Part shown: positions 48,511 through 63,044 of the stretch, piece by piece
How the letters are laid out: every line of letters starts with the position of its first letter
Position numbering within the stretch: position 1 is the first letter of the stretch
DNA from: Clostridia bacterium
GTDB taxonomy: Bacteria; Bacillota; Clostridia; Oscillospirales; RGIG8002
DNA length: 64,000 bases
Assembly (NCBI GenBank): GCA_017620395.1
Contig: JAFZQJ010000035.1
Location: forward strand, 1-64,000
Direction: 5' to 3'
Notes under the pieces: generated by a model
What the model saw: only the letters and a program-made list of their open reading frames with translations
Told to the model about the DNA's origin: nothing
The model's database searches: none
Translations under genes and position numbers: made by a program

Positions 48511-49311
48511 TCAAAACGTCGGGTAGTCAACGCCGATGCGCTTCGCCTTCGTCCTGCCGAGATCGTGGTAGGGTAGGTATTCGACCGCGAGCAGCTTCGG
48601 GAACCGCGCGGCGAACGCTTCGCGCTCTTCGTCCGTGCCGTTGACGCCGGGAACGACGGGGCAGCGCAGTATCACCTTCGCGCCGCTGTCGAGCAGGAAA
48701 GCGAGGTTTTTGACGATGAGGCCGTCCGGCGCGCCGGTCAGCTTTTCGTGCAGCTCAGTCGGCGCCTTGTGGTCGAACAAAAACAGATCGCAAAGCGGCA
48801 GCAGCTCCGCGAAGCGCTCCGTCGGCGCGAAGCCGCAGGTCTCGACCGCCGTGTGAACGCCCTCGCGCTTCGCGAGCGTCAGCAGTTCCTTCAGAAACGC
48901 GAACTGAAAGGTCGGCTCGCCGCCGGAAACGGTCAGTCCGCCGCCGGAGGTCTCGTAATACGCCCTGTCGCGCAGAACGACGCGCATTATCTCCTCCACG
49001 GACGCTTCGTATCCGTATATCTTCAGCGCCTTCGCGGGGCAGACGGATACGCACTTTCCGCAGGCGGCGCAGGCGGAGAAATCGACCGCGTGCCCGTCCG
49101 CGAATGAGTGGACGCCGCGCGGACAAGCTTCCGCACATCTGCCGCAGCCGACACAGGCGCCGGCGTTATAGGAGAGCTGCGGGCGCGGGCTCTTCGATTC
49201 GGGGTTGTGGCACCATAGGCAGTTCAGCGGACAGCCCTTGAAAAAGACCGTCGTGCGTATGCCGGGGCCGTCATTGAGCGAGAAACGCTCGATATCAATT
49301 ATCGTTCCCAT
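48511..49311 (-). CDS. Glycyl radical enzyme activase (radical SAM)
   Basis: A 266-residue activase that uses SAM and a 4Fe-4S cluster to place the glycyl radical on the partner enzyme. SAM cluster CxxxCxxC in FFKGCPLNCLWCHN (near 26-36). Two further Fe-S clusters in the insert: CVGCGRCAEACP and CAACGKCVSVCP. GGEPTFQ for SAM contact. Overlaps the enzyme gene by 17 bases. Its partner is the 719-residue protein just upstream, not the classical PflB. Confidence 0.94.
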   Translation of the reverse strand: MGTIIDIERFSLNDGPGIRTTVFFKGCPLNCLWCHNPESKSPRPQLSYNAGACVGCGRCAEACPRGVHSFADGHAVDFSACAACGKCVSVCPAKALKIYGYEASVEEIMRVVLRDRAYYETSGGGLTVSGGEPTFQFAFLKELLTLAKREGVHTAVETCGFAPTERFAELLPLCDLFLFDHKAPTELHEKLTGAPDGLIVKNLAFLLDSGAKVILRCPVVPGVNGTDEEREAFAARFPKLLAVEYLPYHDLGRTKAKRIGVDYPTF

Positions 49312-51454
49312 AAAGCGTCCTCGAAACTATCTCGCGCTGAACGTCTGGGTCGAGCTCTACGAACCGCGCCGCGAAGCCGCCGACGCGGACTATCAGATCG
49401 GGGTATTTTTCCGGATGGACGAGCGCGTCCTCAAGGTCGCCCTTGTTGAGCACGTTCAGCATCGCCTGCTGTCCTCTGCGGAAGTATGCGGCGAGCAGCG
49501 CCTTCGTCTTTTCGCGGTACTTGTTGAACATCTCAGTGGTGAACTTCATGTTCTGCACCGCGCCGGCGTGGATCGACGGGTCGAGCTTCACGAGGGAGTT
49601 GAGCATCGCGGTGACGCCGCTTACGTCGCGGCCGCCCGTCGGGTTGTTGCCGTTCGCCATCGGCTCGCAGGCGCCGCGTCCGTCCGCGGATGCGCCGGTG
49701 AGCACGCCCATGGTAGTGTTCATGGAGTTGTTTATCACGACGACCTTGTAGGTGTGCAGTCCGACCTTCACGGCCTGCGCGTTCGCGCTTGCGCATACCT
49801 GCTCGTGAACGCGGACCGCCATCGCGTCCGCCTCATCGTCGTCGTTGCCGTACTTCGGGCAGTCGAGCAGCGCGCGGCGCAGGTCTTCGTATCCCTCGAA
49901 GTTCGCGGCGAGCGCCGCTTTCAGCTCGTCGAGCGTGGCGAGCTTGCGGTCGTAGACGACGGACTTTATCGCCGTTAAGCTGTCGGCGGTATTGATATTG
50001 CCGTATGACTCAATCGTGCCGCCGAGCCAGCGGACGCCGCCGGAAAGCAGCGGCTTCCCGCGCTCGACGCAGTCGTCGTAAAGCATGGAGAGATAGAGCA
50101 AGCTCGCTTCCTCGCCCGTGACGTCGTATTCGATCTTTTCCTGGAGCGCGAGCGCCTCCATAAGCAGGTCGACGTTCGCGGAATAGGCGGCAAAAAGCGT
50201 CTCGAAATCGCTGAATTCGCGTTTCGGGAGTATCTGCTTGCCGCGCCTGATATCGCGCCCGCCGAAGAGCGTCGCTTCAAGTACCTTCAGCAGGTTTATC
50301 GTGCCGCTGGGGGTGCCGAGCGAGCAGTGCTCCAGCACGTATTCGCCGCAGCCGAACGGCATATAATGCTCGGCGGTCTCGCGGCTGACGCCGAAGGACT
50401 TTTCGACGGCGGGGACGTTGACCTCGTCGGAATAGAGCATGGGGTAGATGTAGCCGTCTGCGAAATTGTCGAACGCCTTTTCCAAAAGCGCGGGATCCTG
50501 TCCGTCATAGAAGCGGAGCGTCAGCTGCGGCAGTACCTCGCGGTAGCGGCGGCTCGCCTCGATCGCGAGCAGCGCGACGCGGTCGGCGGCCTTTTCGCGC
50601 TTGCGCGCGCGTCCGCCTACGATGACGCGGCCGTCCCATATCCAGCCGCGGAAAACCACGAGCTTGTAGAAACCGATGAGCAGGCGGATTATCTCCTCGT
50701 CGTCGAGCCCGTCGGCGAAGGGGGCGAGGATATCGTCCAGCCGCCCATAGTCGAGGTTGCCGGAAATATGCGCGAAAAGCGTGATGAGCTGCAGCGCCTC
50801 GTGCATATTCTCGGGCGCGTGCGCGGCGATGCCTTCGCACGAAGCCGCCATTTCGTCCTTGCCCGCCTTGCGCGCGGCTTCGGCGCAGCTTAAGGCGATT
50901 TCTGCGAGCAGGTCGAGCGCGCCGAGCATGGAGCCGAAGAAGTCGGCGTCGCCGCCTTTCGCGGCGCGCGCGGAGATCTCCGCCTTCAGCCCGGGAATGC
51001 CGAGCGTGACGAGTTTTTCGTAGTCGGGAAACGTGCCGCCGATGCGGTAGAGCAGGGAAGCGGCGTCCTCGTAGTCCGCCATAGGCGGCAGCAGTGAGGT
51101 TATCTTTTCCGGATATGCGGTTATCGTTTTCGCGGTCGTGGTCCTGCCGCGAAAGCGGTCTGCGGCTTCGCGGAGGCGCTTCGCGGTCGCTTCGTCGACC
51201 TCGGCGGCGACGGCCTCGACCTTTTCGGGGTACATATAATAGCCCTGATACTCGTGCTCCTGCGGCGTGAAGCCGACGGCGAGTTCGCGGTATCTTCCGG
51301 CGAAAATATCCCCGTCGTCAAACGGCAGGAAAAACGCTTTCGCGAAAACGCGCAGGCAGGCGAGCTCGCGCGCGCCCTTCGGGCCGTTCCCGTGCTCGAG
51401 GAACGTATTTATAAACGAGATTATATACTCGGCGTGGTCTTTTGGAGTAAACAT
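49295..51454 (-). CDS. Glycyl radical enzyme of unknown substrate
   Basis: A 719-residue enzyme of the PFL/GRE superfamily, oxygen-sensitive and cytosolic. Thiyl Cys in PFGCGEYVLE (C369), followed by the Glu typical of non-PFL members, and radical loop RVGGFAARF with Gly693 near the C-terminus. At 719 residues it is shorter than most dehydratases of about 780-850. The CGE motif is closer to dehydratase-like or decarboxylase-like clades than to PFL. Substrate unknown. CGGAGG precedes the ATG at 51454. Pair operon with activase. Confidence 0.9.
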   Translation of the reverse strand: MFTPKDHAEYIISFINTFLEHGNGPKGARELACLRVFAKAFFLPFDDGDIFAGRYRELAVGFTPQEHEYQGYYMYPEKVEAVAAEVDEATAKRLREAADRFRGRTTTAKTITAYPEKITSLLPPMADYEDAASLLYRIGGTFPDYEKLVTLGIPGLKAEISARAAKGGDADFFGSMLGALDLLAEIALSCAEAARKAGKDEMAASCEGIAAHAPENMHEALQLITLFAHISGNLDYGRLDDILAPFADGLDDEEIIRLLIGFYKLVVFRGWIWDGRVIVGGRARKREKAADRVALLAIEASRRYREVLPQLTLRFYDGQDPALLEKAFDNFADGYIYPMLYSDEVNVPAVEKSFGVSRETAEHYMPFGCGEYVLEHCSLGTPSGTINLLKVLEATLFGGRDIRRGKQILPKREFSDFETLFAAYSANVDLLMEALALQEKIEYDVTGEEASLLYLSMLYDDCVERGKPLLSGGVRWLGGTIESYGNINTADSLTAIKSVVYDRKLATLDELKAALAANFEGYEDLRRALLDCPKYGNDDDEADAMAVRVHEQVCASANAQAVKVGLHTYKVVVINNSMNTTMGVLTGASADGRGACEPMANGNNPTGGRDVSGVTAMLNSLVKLDPSIHAGAVQNMKFTTEMFNKYREKTKALLAAYFRRGQQAMLNVLNKGDLEDALVHPEKYPDLIVRVGGFAARFVELDPDVQREIVSRTLYGNDN

Positions 51455-51477
51455 GGTATCGCCTCCGTTCACCTCGA

Positions 51478-51572: not shown

Positions 51573-53216
51573 TTATTCGTTTCTGATTGCCTTGCGGTTT
51601 ATTTTGCCGGTGACGGTTTTCGGGAGCGCGTCCATATAGCAGACGATGCGCGGATACTTATACGGCGCGGTCATCTTCTTGACGTAGGTCTGAAGCTCCT
51701 TCGTCAGCTCGTCGGTGCCTTCGTAGCCCTTGTGGAGCACGATGGACGCCTTGACGACCTGCCCGCGCAGCGGGTCGGGAGCGCCGGTGATGGCGCATTC
51801 CTTGACCGCGGGGTGCGAAAGCAGCACGCTCTCGATCTCGAAGGGGCCTATGCGGTAGCCGGAGCACTTGATCATATCGTCGTTGCGCCCGACGAACCAG
51901 ATGTGGCCGTCCTCGTCCTTCCACGCGAGGTCGCCGGTGTGGTAGCGGCCGTTTTCATCGCAGTGGTCGATTATCTTTTCGCCGTCGTAGTAGCCGCAGA
52001 GCAGGCCGAAGGGGCTGTCCTTCTTCGCGTTGCGGACGACGAGTTCGCCGACGTCGCCGACGCCGCATTCAGAGCCGTCCTCGGCGCAGATGGCGAGATC
52101 GTAGACGGGGGAGGGCTTGCCGGTCGAGCCGTATTTCGGCTTGAACCATTGGAAATTCGCAATCAGCACGCTGCTCTCGGACTGGCCGAAGCCCTCGTGT
52201 ATTTCGAGCCCTGTCTCTTCCTTGAATTCGGTGATTATCTCCGGCGCGAGCGGCTCGCCCGCGGTGCAGCAGTGCACGACTGAGGCGAAGTCCTCTTTTT
52301 TCAGGCCTTCGACTATGAGGAAGCGGTATATCGTGCCCGGCACGCATACGGTGGTCGGCTTGAAGGTGCGGATGACGTCGAGGAACTTCGCGGCGGAGAA
52401 CTTGTTGCCCTGATCGTAGCCGAGCAGCGCGGTGCCGGAGATCCACTGGCCGTAGATCAGACCCCACGCGAACTTTGCCCAGCCGGAGTCGGCGTTCGTC
52501 AGGTGCAGACCGCCGTCGACGACCTGCTGCCAGTACTTCGCGGTCACGATGTGCCCGAGCGGGTAGCGGTAGTTATGCACGACCATCTTCGGCATTCCGG
52601 AGGTGCCGCTCGTGAAGTAGAGAAGCATCGGGTCGGTCAGCTTTATATCGGGGTTGACGGTATAGTCGGGCTTCGCGTTCGCGATGCCTTCGCGGTAGTC
52701 GATCCAGCCCTCGCGTTTGTTTCCGACGAGGAGCAGGTTCTCGACGGAGGGACACTGCGGCGCGGAGGCCTCGACCTGCTGTATTACCCAGTCGTCCTCG
52801 GCGGCGATGACCATCTTCGCGTGCGCGGAGTTGAAACGGTAGACGAGGTCCTTCGCGGCGAGCTGGTAGTTCGCGGGAATCAGCACAGCTCCGATACGGT
52901 GGAGCGCCACTGCGGTGATCCACATCTCCGGCCTGCGCCGGAGTATCGTGACGACCATGTCGCCCTTGCGGATGCCGAGCGAAACGAGGTAGGAGGCGGC
53001 TTTTTTGGAAAGCTCCGAGATCTCGCCGAAGGTGAATTCGCGGCTTTCGCCCTCGTCGTTGCACCAGACGAGCGCACGTCTGTCCGGCTCGGTGCGAGCC
53101 CATTCGTCGATGACGTGGGTCGCGAAATTAAAGTCCGGCGGGCAGTTTACGGCGTAGTTCGCCTTGAAATCCTCGTAGGAGTCGTATTCGATTCTGTTGA
53201 TGAATTTTTCCAGCAT
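51573..53216 (-). CDS. AMP-dependent acyl-CoA synthetase (MACS-like)
   Basis: A 547-residue adenylate-forming ligase that activates a carboxylic acid to its CoA thioester. Motifs in order: YFTSGTSGMPKMVVHN (A3), HEGFGQSE (A5), YHTGDLAWKDEDG (A7), GRNDDMIKCSGYRIGPFEIE (A8) and PKTVTGKINRKAIRN with the catalytic Lys (A10). The family acts on acetate to medium-chain, branched or aromatic acids. A T-box leader ahead of it suggests control by uncharged tRNA, unusual for this family. GGAGG precedes the ATG. Confidence 0.93.
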   Translation of the reverse strand: MLEKFINRIEYDSYEDFKANYAVNCPPDFNFATHVIDEWARTEPDRRALVWCNDEGESREFTFGEISELSKKAASYLVSLGIRKGDMVVTILRRRPEMWITAVALHRIGAVLIPANYQLAAKDLVYRFNSAHAKMVIAAEDDWVIQQVEASAPQCPSVENLLLVGNKREGWIDYREGIANAKPDYTVNPDIKLTDPMLLYFTSGTSGMPKMVVHNYRYPLGHIVTAKYWQQVVDGGLHLTNADSGWAKFAWGLIYGQWISGTALLGYDQGNKFSAAKFLDVIRTFKPTTVCVPGTIYRFLIVEGLKKEDFASVVHCCTAGEPLAPEIITEFKEETGLEIHEGFGQSESSVLIANFQWFKPKYGSTGKPSPVYDLAICAEDGSECGVGDVGELVVRNAKKDSPFGLLCGYYDGEKIIDHCDENGRYHTGDLAWKDEDGHIWFVGRNDDMIKCSGYRIGPFEIESVLLSHPAVKECAITGAPDPLRGQVVKASIVLHKGYEGTDELTKELQTYVKKMTAPYKYPRIVCYMDALPKTVTGKINRKAIRNE

Positions 53217-53236: not shown

Positions 53237-53503
53237 ATAAAAAAATCCCGGCCAGTCAGCCGGGACGCGTCAGCGCGGTACCACCCGAATTCGTGCCGAA
53301 GCACGCACTCATCCGGAGCGAAAACTCCGTGCCATTTGGTAATGCGGCGGCGGTCCGCAGCGGAGACTAATGAGCGCGACGCGCCGTTCGATCCGCGGCT
53401 CCGAGGCTACTTCACCCGCTTCCGAACGCGGCGCTTCCACCGTCCGCCGCTCTCTATGCTCCGAAGGTGCGGGGTACTACTCCTCTTCACAGCCTTTGAA
53501 TAT
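53237..53503 (-). ncRNA. T-box riboswitch (tRNA-sensing leader), probable Val specifier
   Basis: The minus strand holds the T-box hallmark GGTGGTACCGCG (53274-53286), a stem I with GAAGAGGAGTAGTA, AGAGAGCGG and GGTGGAAGCG, and a terminator (TCCCGGC with GCCGGGA, 53239-53265) ending in seven T, just before the ribosome site of the synthetase gene. The probable specifier after GTGAA is GTA (53408-53410), a Val codon; an AGT reading (Ser) is less likely but possible. Uncharged tRNA would stabilise the antiterminator and turn the gene on. Confidence 0.9.
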
Positions 53504-53509
53504 GTGTGG

Positions 53510-53538
53510 ATTTTAGCACAATAAAGGGGTGTTGTCAA
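53510..53538 (-). promoter_or_regulatory. Promoter of the T-box leader
   Basis: Minus strand TTGACA, 17 nt, TAAAAT. Confidence 0.85.
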
Positions 53539-60013: not shown

Positions 60014-60928
60014 TCATGTCATAACGCACTTACAGCCTTTTTCGATCAGCGTTTGTTTGATCCTTTTCAGCTCGGATCGATCAGGGATGTTTTCCTTGGT
60101 CAAGGTATACTTCTTATCGAGCGAAGCATATTTGCCTTCGCCGTATTGATGATAAGGAAATATCTGTATCTCTTTACAGTTTTTTAACGATTTGAACAGT
60201 TTTGCCAAAGCATCAAGGTGACCTTCGTCGATGTTGATTCCCTTTATCATAATGCAACGCAGGATCGTTTTTCCACCCATGCGGTCGAGCGCAAAAAGGT
60301 TTTCAAGAATCAAACCGTTATCGACTCCCGTATTCGCTTTGTGTCTTTCGGGATTGGTGTCCTTTACATCCCAAAGGAAAAGAGCAACCGATTTTTTCAG
60401 CCTCGGCAGGTATCTCGGGTCGAACGAGCCGCAGGTCTCCATCACGACGTTGATACCCTGCTCCTTGGCTTTTTCCGCAAGCAGAACACACCCTTCGCCG
60501 TGATACATCGGCTCCCCTCCCGACAAAGTCAACCCACCGTCCCTACCGTAAAACGCTTCGTCTTTTTTGACTTCCGAAATAATTTCATCCAAAGTCAACG
60601 TCCTGTATGCGCTTTCGAGCGCACCCGAGGGGCAAGCATCGCAGCATTTTAAACACCCGACACAGTTCTCGCGTAAAACGAGGTGCTCTTCCGTAATAAA
60701 TCTGTGGACTTTGCCGGGGCATACGCCCTCACACGCCTTACATCCGATACACAAAGAAGGCGTATAAAAAAACTGCGGCAGAGGCGTTTGTGCTTCGGGG
60801 TTGTGGCACCACTTGCAGTTTAACGGACAACCTTTCAAGAACACCGTAGTCCTGATTCCGGGTCCGTCGTGCGTCGAAAAGCGCTGTATATTCGTGATCG
60901 GAAGCCGAATCCCGTTTTCATCCTTCAT
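60014..60928 (-). CDS. Glycyl radical enzyme activase, second copy
   Basis: A 304-residue radical SAM activase with FLKGCPLNCKWCHN (SAM cluster), CIGCKACEGVCPGK and CVGCLKCCDACPSG (two extra clusters), and SGGEPMYHG. It overlaps its enzyme gene by 11 bases. Base composition is more AT-rich than the 48-kb copy, and the sequences differ clearly, so it is not a recent duplicate. Confidence 0.94.
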   Translation of the reverse strand: MKDENGIRLPITNIQRFSTHDGPGIRTTVFLKGCPLNCKWCHNPEAQTPLPQFFYTPSLCIGCKACEGVCPGKVHRFITEEHLVLRENCVGCLKCCDACPSGALESAYRTLTLDEIISEVKKDEAFYGRDGGLTLSGGEPMYHGEGCVLLAEKAKEQGINVVMETCGSFDPRYLPRLKKSVALFLWDVKDTNPERHKANTGVDNGLILENLFALDRMGGKTILRCIMIKGINIDEGHLDALAKLFKSLKNCKEIQIFPYHQYGEGKYASLDKKYTLTKENIPDRSELKRIKQTLIEKGCKCVMT

Positions 60929-63044
60929 GTTCTGTCCTTCCTATGATCATATCCTGCCACTCTTTCGTGAGCGTCACAAAACGAGCGTTCCAACCGGAGA
61001 CTCTGACCGACAGCGTTTTATATGCCTTTGGATCCTTCTGCGCGGCTCGCAAGGTGTCCGCGCTTACGGTATCCATCTGTAAAAAGTATCCGCCCAAATC
61101 GACAAATCCGAGAATCAGCGACTTGATTGCGGCAACACCGTTTTTACCCGACAAAGCGGTCGGAGAAATATTGATATATAACGCCGTGCCCGTTACCATT
61201 TCCGAAAGGTCTGCTTTGCAATAAGAATTGATGACCGCCGTTGCACCAACGGTATCCGTTCCGGGGGTCGGTGACGAATTGCCAGCCAGTACAGCGCCTT
61301 GATACGCGCCGAAAGGCGTCGACAATCTTTGTTTTGCCCACTCGATCTGCCTTCCGAAAGTCGAAACGCCGGCAGGAAAGAGAAAATTCACCTTCGTATC
61401 GAACTCACGGCAAATCAGATAAAAATCGTGAAGTATTCTAGCGTATATCCCGTCAACTTCGTCGTTGTCCGTGCCATAATATTGATAAGACAAAATACGA
61501 TTTCTTAAAGCCTCGTTACCTTTCCAATCGTTTTTAAGAACGGTCATAAAAGATCCGAAAGAAACGATCTTTTCATCAAAAACAAGTTTCTTGATCGCAT
61601 ATAGACTGTTAACGGTATCCGCAATACCACCGATATGAGGAGATAAAACGGAATACTTGGCGCCACCGTTACAATATGACTTTGCGCTTTCTATACAATC
61701 GTTCTCAAAAAGCGATACAGCCGAGCAAGGAGTCTGTGAATTGAACCAACGGTAATACGGGTTGTCGTCGGGATTGTCGATATATTTTTCTACCGATGCA
61801 TATAGTTTTCCGACCTCATCGCGAAGATCGGAAATATATTTATGATACAACTCTTCAAAATCGGCAAATTCTATATTTTCATAATCGTTTAAAGTAACCT
61901 TCTGCAAGAGGCAGAGCGAATCGAAAGAATGATACTCGAACCGGGTTTTTCCGGGAACCTGAACTTCCCAACAACCGTCGTTTGCAAAATCGCGGGCGTC
62001 TCTTTCGGGATAACCGTAATTTGTCATCGCCTTGATAACGAGCTCTTCGTTATATAAAGCCACCACCCCGCCGCCGTGGCGAATTACGCGTGCGACTTTA
62101 TCGAGTAGTCTGCGGGACGTATTTTTATTGACCCTTACGGAAACCGGGTAGTCCGATATGCCGAGTTCTTCTATGATATCGAGAACAAGATATGTCACCT
62201 CGTTGGTAACATCATTTCCGTCCGCATCGATACCCGATAAAACAATGTTTTGATAATGCTGCGCGTCGCCGCTGCCAAGCGGAGTATCTTTTTGTATCCA
62301 CTCCGTCCCCTTAATAAAGAATGATGCTAAAATCTCCCTTGCTTTTTCTTTCGTCAACAGACCTTTTTTTACATCATTTTCATAGTATTTGCCGAGCATT
62401 TTATCAATTCTGCCTATACCCGGGAAATTCCCTGTCAAACGAAGAAACGAGAATATAAACCAGATCGACTGCACCGCTTCGTGAAAAGTCCTTGCAGGTT
62501 GAAAAGGAACCTGCAACAAGTTTTCATAAATATCCGGTTTCAGATCCTTAACGGCCGCAAGATAACGCAAGTGATAAATTTTAAGGCATTTTATCACATT
62601 TCTCAGACTGAACAATAATTTTTTCTGTTTGTCCGAAAGGGTGCAGTCTTTTAGTCTTTCTTCAATCTTTTCCGAATAAAAATCTATGCCTTTATCAAGC
62701 GTCGTTTCATAATCCGTCGTCAGATGACTAATGGAAGAAAAAACAAATTTATTTTTGTAAAAAGCGGGCACGCGATGCCATATAGCCGCGCCGAGCGTTG
62801 CGGATCCGGAAACCAGTTCTTCCTCACAAATCCGTATCGGTGCTTCTCTTGCGATTTTTTCAAGTAAAAAGTCATATTTTTCGATCGGTGTAAGCTCTTC
62901 AAAAGAAGGATCGACAACATTCAGATATGGCGTCTCCATTGCTTCTGTCCCGTATTTTCCTTGCAAGGATTCCCAAGCCCATTTCCTTATTTTTGCAGAC
63001 AACCGAATCGGTCTTTTTACGCTTGACGCGGTAGGAAAAACCAT
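60918..63044 (-). CDS. Glycyl radical enzyme of unknown substrate, AT-rich
   Basis: A 708-residue GRE. Thiyl Cys in ANDGCWEVQVPG (C358) and radical loop RVSGWNARF (Gly684) near the C-terminus. The CWE block and length set it apart from PFL and from the 49-kb enzyme. GC content is visibly lower than the rest of the window. AAAGGAG precedes the ATG at 63044. Next to a mobile element edge; acquisition by transfer is plausible. Substrate not predictable. Confidence 0.9.
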   Translation of the reverse strand: MVFPTASSVKRPIRLSAKIRKWAWESLQGKYGTEAMETPYLNVVDPSFEELTPIEKYDFLLEKIAREAPIRICEEELVSGSATLGAAIWHRVPAFYKNKFVFSSISHLTTDYETTLDKGIDFYSEKIEERLKDCTLSDKQKKLLFSLRNVIKCLKIYHLRYLAAVKDLKPDIYENLLQVPFQPARTFHEAVQSIWFIFSFLRLTGNFPGIGRIDKMLGKYYENDVKKGLLTKEKAREILASFFIKGTEWIQKDTPLGSGDAQHYQNIVLSGIDADGNDVTNEVTYLVLDIIEELGISDYPVSVRVNKNTSRRLLDKVARVIRHGGGVVALYNEELVIKAMTNYGYPERDARDFANDGCWEVQVPGKTRFEYHSFDSLCLLQKVTLNDYENIEFADFEELYHKYISDLRDEVGKLYASVEKYIDNPDDNPYYRWFNSQTPCSAVSLFENDCIESAKSYCNGGAKYSVLSPHIGGIADTVNSLYAIKKLVFDEKIVSFGSFMTVLKNDWKGNEALRNRILSYQYYGTDNDEVDGIYARILHDFYLICREFDTKVNFLFPAGVSTFGRQIEWAKQRLSTPFGAYQGAVLAGNSSPTPGTDTVGATAVINSYCKADLSEMVTGTALYINISPTALSGKNGVAAIKSLILGFVDLGGYFLQMDTVSADTLRAAQKDPKAYKTLSVRVSGWNARFVTLTKEWQDMIIGRTEHEG

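Follow-up and report, generated by a model that had tools for sequence, protein, structure and literature searches.

A valine-type T-box leader ahead of an acyl-CoA synthetase gene in a Clostridia bacterium: possible tRNA control of isobutyrate salvage

The known targets of T-box riboswitches are tRNA synthetases, classical biosynthetic genes and transporters. The stretch of DNA analysed here (hereafter, the window; 64,000 nucleotides of contig JAFZQJ010000035.1, positions 1 to 64,000) carries a T-box-like leader immediately upstream of a gene for an acyl-CoA synthetase. This raises the question of whether the leader is genuine, which amino acid it reads, and why an enzyme activating carboxylic acids should be placed under the control of a tRNA.

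The leader, its specifier and the transcription unit

The analysis of the minus strand revealed a complete regulatory unit between positions 53538 and 51531 of the window, in which a promoter, the T-box, a terminator, a GGAGG ribosome-binding site, an ATG, the synthetase gene and a closing terminator follow one another. The promoter (TTGACA-17-TAAAAT, 53538-53510, minus strand; 11/12 in a consensus scan) has similar hexamers at the same position in the relatives. The covariance-model scan proposed in the initial annotation matched the whole leader (53499-53258, minus strand; model positions 1-219 of Rfam RF00230) with 92.6 bits and an E-value of 5.1e-21. A default-threshold Rfam scan of the window gave no match, since this score lies 0.4 bits below the gathering score of 93; against the same gathering score, the orthologous leaders of the genus reach 91.0-93.8 bits and those of more distant lineages 107.8-124.9 bits. 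The fold of the whole leader by itself has a z of -0.7 and is uninformative. In an alignment of eight leaders, UGGU is invariant and the base pairs flanking the specifier bulge show compensatory changes. The T-box sequence (GGGUGGUACCGCG, 53286-53274, minus strand) contains the UGGU bulge at 53283-53280 and is followed by an intrinsic terminator (GTCCCGGCTGACTGGCCGGGATTTTTTT, 53266-53239, minus strand; -15.9 kcal/mol, z -4.3) that competes with the antiterminator ahead of the gene. The AMP-forming synthetase (547 aa, 53216-51573, minus strand) starts with the ATG at 53216, the GGAGG being located just upstream. The relatives likewise have an intact promoter, specifier, UGGU, terminator and start codon. 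The element at 53499-53258 is a real T-box leader, and the T-box riboswitch annotated at 53237-53538, with terminator and start codon intact right before an acyl-CoA synthetase gene, is borne out by the RF00230 match and by the span from promoter to terminator.

According to the rule of the T-box database, the specifier occupies positions 2-4 counted from the end of the Stem I bulge (PMC7778990); applied to the bulge GAA-GUA-G, which lies ahead of CCUC, this rule gives GUA, i.e., valine (53410-53408, minus strand). The bulge is one base shorter than that of the covariance model, and therefore the specifier was checked comparatively. The orthologous leaders L043 and L074 show the canonical spacing GAA-N-GUA-G. 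The comparison set consisted of sixteen T-boxes associated with valS in the same order, thirteen of which have a readable bulge; these read GAA-N-GUA-G, GAA-N-GUC-G or GAA-N-GUG-G, with L017 reading exactly GAA-GUA-G. Moreover, GUAG is invariant across the eight aligned leaders, and the genome encodes a tRNA-Val(UAC) whose ACCA end matches the UGGU bulge. The register shared with the valS T-boxes, the conservation in other lineages, the cognate tRNA and the operon of locus L135 (see below) thus support the assignment of GUA to valine, in agreement with the GTA specifier originally proposed.

The synthetase forms a single-gene unit, since its closing terminator (51559-51531, minus strand) and a perfect promoter (TTGACA-16-TATAAT, 51505-51478) precede the next gene; a transcript shared with the downstream glycyl radical enzyme is ruled out by these two elements. 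The latter enzyme and its activase (48511-51472), having their own promoter, fall under every NCBIfam equivalog cut-off, and a different, second glycyl radical enzyme/activase pair is located at 60014-63044. The genome (1.93 Mb, 98.7% complete) contains three T-box matches altogether. One of them is a weak T-box-like element of 48 bits (L003 1501-1713, contig C9) that lies close to tyrS, on the other strand, and for which no clear target gene was found.

Conservation of the pair and the exchange of regulator

The T-box/synthetase pair is present in all four genomes of the genus. Two records almost identical to genus members are rumen metagenome-assembled genomes from water buffalo and goat, and the organism is a gut bacterium, probably of the rumen. 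The same pair was found in Angelakisella massiliensis, in L071, L073, L074 and L135, and in G238, which belongs to another family, with protein identities of 56-64%. In a tree of 113 proteins, built with a quick method and with L135 on a long branch, the synthetases preceded by a T-box, including that of A. massiliensis, form one clade (SH-aLRT 100). In L135, the gene order is T-box-synthetase-valS-folC, synthetase and valS being about 15 bases apart; this arrangement provides operon evidence tying the synthetase to valine.

Outside this clade the synthetase homologues have a different neighbour. An XRE-cupin gene lies directly upstream in 79 of about 97 of them, including homologues from Lentisphaerota, Spirochaetota and Bacteroidota, and in none of the members of the T-box clade (Fisher p 1e-7, shared ancestry being ignored). 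It appears that in one clade a protein regulator has been replaced by an RNA regulator, perhaps through an arrangement resembling T-box-synthetase-valS. A further T-box (L139 3148-3982), with the probable specifier GUC, also valine, precedes an XRE-cupin-synthetase pair outside the main clade, which suggests a second acquisition. The genome under study also contains a synthetase paralogue (L180 7498-9789, contig C27; 49% identity) fused to the XRE-cupin regulator within a single protein of 763 aa. The T-box itself is ordinary, its target and the swap of regulator appearing to be new: no published link of a T-box to an acyl-CoA synthetase, reductive carboxylation, indolepyruvate or isobutyryl-CoA was found in a search that did not cover two main T-box surveys, so that earlier notice is possible.

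Substrate, valine pathway and alternative explanations

Both the AMP-binding (PF00501) and the C-terminal (PF13193) domains of the synthetase score over their cut-offs, and the nearest solved structure is 3ETC, the medium-chain acyl-CoA synthetase MacsMa of Methanosarcina acetivorans (588 bits vs 356 for the next one). The preferred substrate of MacsMa is 2-methylbutyrate, and the acyl pocket of that enzyme contains a Trp and a Gly (PMC10455477). The pocket Trp (Trp259 of MacsMa, assuming a one-residue offset between the numbering of the paper and that of the chain) is kept in 115 of 116 rows, as are, in the window protein, the Gly replacing the Trp of Acs and the EGFGQ motif. The retention of both pocket residues points to a small branched acid as the likely substrate, and the valine specifier suggests isobutyrate in particular, which the enzyme probably activates; the preference of the nearest characterised enzyme for 2-methylbutyrate, an isoleucine-type acid, counts against this. 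Among the NCBIfam profiles, staphylococcal MbcS (NF047394) gives the best match across the full length of the protein, but equivalog membership is ruled out by a score of 400.6 bits, far under the cut-off of 850.

The gene content of the valine pathway was then compared. The window genome and its sister species have no IlvC, and neither do G238, A. massiliensis, L071, L073, L074, L135 and L139; it was found in 14/14 control genomes and in 131 of 226 good genomes from the order, and since about two fifths of the latter lack it, its absence is weak evidence if taken alone. It is present in Ruminococcus callidus and Pseudoruminococcus massiliensis, which have a synthetase homologue and no T-box. 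Across the order, IlvC is rarer in genomes with a close synthetase homologue (11/45 vs 132/250, uncorrected for kinship). IlvD is likewise absent from the T-box genomes tested, with the only exception of the L074 genome, where an IlvD/Edd-family gene (L226) occurs in the absence of IlvC and may encode either a true IlvD or another dehydratase.

The ketoacid:ferredoxin oxidoreductase that the initial annotation had suggested looking for was found in the window genome as a set of three genes for a ketoisovalerate:ferredoxin oxidoreductase (VOR), with an alpha subunit above the NCBIfam NF005507 cut-off (550 vs 399 bits), together with IorAB, a pyruvate oxidoreductase and a branched-chain aminotransferase (BCAT) passing TIGR01123. 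In six Lachnospiraceae, a VOR operon is followed by the XRE-cupin gene and the synthetase; no such VOR-synthetase linkage was found in the window genome, which counts against a role in valine synthesis. In G238 (L184 5299-10346, contig C11), iorA-iorB lie between two genes that, judged by eye, resemble those of phenylacetate-CoA ligases.

On the whole, the lack of IlvC and (with the one exception) IlvD in genomes that do have VOR and BCAT, together with the homologue preferring 2-methylbutyrate, suggests that a cell starved of valine most likely induces the activation of isoacids, to be carboxylated reductively to valine. Isoacids (isobutyrate, isovalerate and 2-methylbutyrate) have long been known to promote the growth of microbes in the rumen. 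In the mechanism proposed here, a transcriptional T-box would sense the charging state of tRNA-Val(UAC): under valine shortage, the uncharged tRNA would bind the GUA specifier through its anticodon and UGGU through its ACCA end, the antiterminator would be stabilised, and RNA polymerase would enter the synthetase gene. The synthetase would then convert isobutyrate left by neighbours, and probably other short branched acids too, into the CoA thioester; the ferredoxin-dependent VOR, presumably run reductively, would turn isobutyryl-CoA into 2-ketoisovalerate, and BCAT would yield valine, this route replacing the IlvC/IlvD pathway missing from the organism. The isobutyrate-to-valine logic suggested at the outset is supported by this predicted gene content, with its one IlvD exception, and by the VOR operons beside synthetase homologues, and the probable explanation of the locus is considered here to be that tRNA-Val controls the activation of isobutyrate, which would then be carboxylated reductively to give valine.

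The main alternative is that the system serves membrane-lipid salvage: a shortage of valine would deprive the cell of the isobutyryl-CoA derived from it, and isobutyrate taken from outside would prime branched-chain fatty acids instead. Staphylococcal MbcS reportedly does so with outside acid, and that MbcS is the best NCBIfam match, although far below its cut-off, speaks in favour of this use, while isobutyryl-CoA as a product would fit either one. However, the missing classical pathway alongside VOR and BCAT, the homologues adjoining VOR and the operon with valS in L135 all point towards the amino acid, and a tRNA sensor would not track lipid need; lipid salvage is therefore considered unlikely as the main function, even though branched-lipid priming and valine synthesis may coexist. 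It is similarly improbable that a valine-specific T-box controls an enzyme acting mainly on another acid, such as 2-methylbutyrate or isovalerate, with valine starvation as a general signal of branched amino acid shortage. The preference of MacsMa would agree with such a signal, as would the fact that isoleucine, too, cannot be made through IlvC; the specifier, nevertheless, is for valine in all the readable leaders of the clade (and probably GUC in L139), and a separate leucine T-box ligase exists.

The only point in favour of a leader that has decayed, or that lies beside the gene by chance, is its score slightly under the Rfam threshold. The relatives retain every element from promoter to start codon, the helices beside the specifier bulge carry compensatory changes, and the leader has been retained while the proteins diverged to 56-64% identity, so that this explanation is extremely improbable; a chance neighbour, in particular, is ruled out by the invariant GUAG and UGGU and by the single clade.

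The leucine element just mentioned is a T-box with specifier CUC (L001 1501-1736) located in the same genome, on contig C1, ahead of the gene for an 865-aa protein (L181 95-2692) in which a xylose-isomerase-like TIM barrel is fused to an AMP-binding ligase. Of 197 genomes from the order, 102 have strong matches to this fusion, some of which cover the ligase part only; a T-box motif lies upstream in 17/20 loci inspected, most with CUC. Four other genomes carry, behind a T-box, a gene for a divergent LeuA-like protein ahead of the fusion. T-box control of acyl-CoA ligases may hence extend more widely among these bacteria. The chances seem about even that scavenged isoacids supply the branched amino acids under tRNA control, the valine T-box having replaced XRE-cupin and the leucine T-box running a second, fused ligase, so that salvage would be switched separately for each amino acid.

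Comparison with known systems

If the preferred reading, valine from scavenged isobutyrate, holds, the set of T-box targets is widened to carboxylic-acid salvage, and, since the specifier codon names the amino acid served by the synthetase, the pairing offers a genetic means of matching each isoacid to the enzyme that activates it. The prediction is clear and testable in a cultured species, A. massiliensis.

The window enzyme resembles MacsMa in the Trp and Gly of its pocket and differs from it in that MacsMa is archaeal and has a known preference for 2-methylbutyrate; MbcS provides its best whole-length NCBIfam profile, yet by score the protein is not a member of that family. Rumen methanogens feed 2-methylbutyrate and isovalerate into isoleucine and leucine (PMC10658910). 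An enzyme set of the kind with which rumen microbes make branched amino acids from isoacids is predicted here too, whereas no description of an activating enzyme under T-box control was found for that process. With the valine T-boxes of valS (RF00230), the leader shares the common Stem I motifs, the register of the GUN specifier, UGGU and the terminator/antiterminator pair; those elements, however, act on valyl-tRNA synthetase, while here an acyl-CoA synthetase stands in its place or, as in L135, ahead of it.
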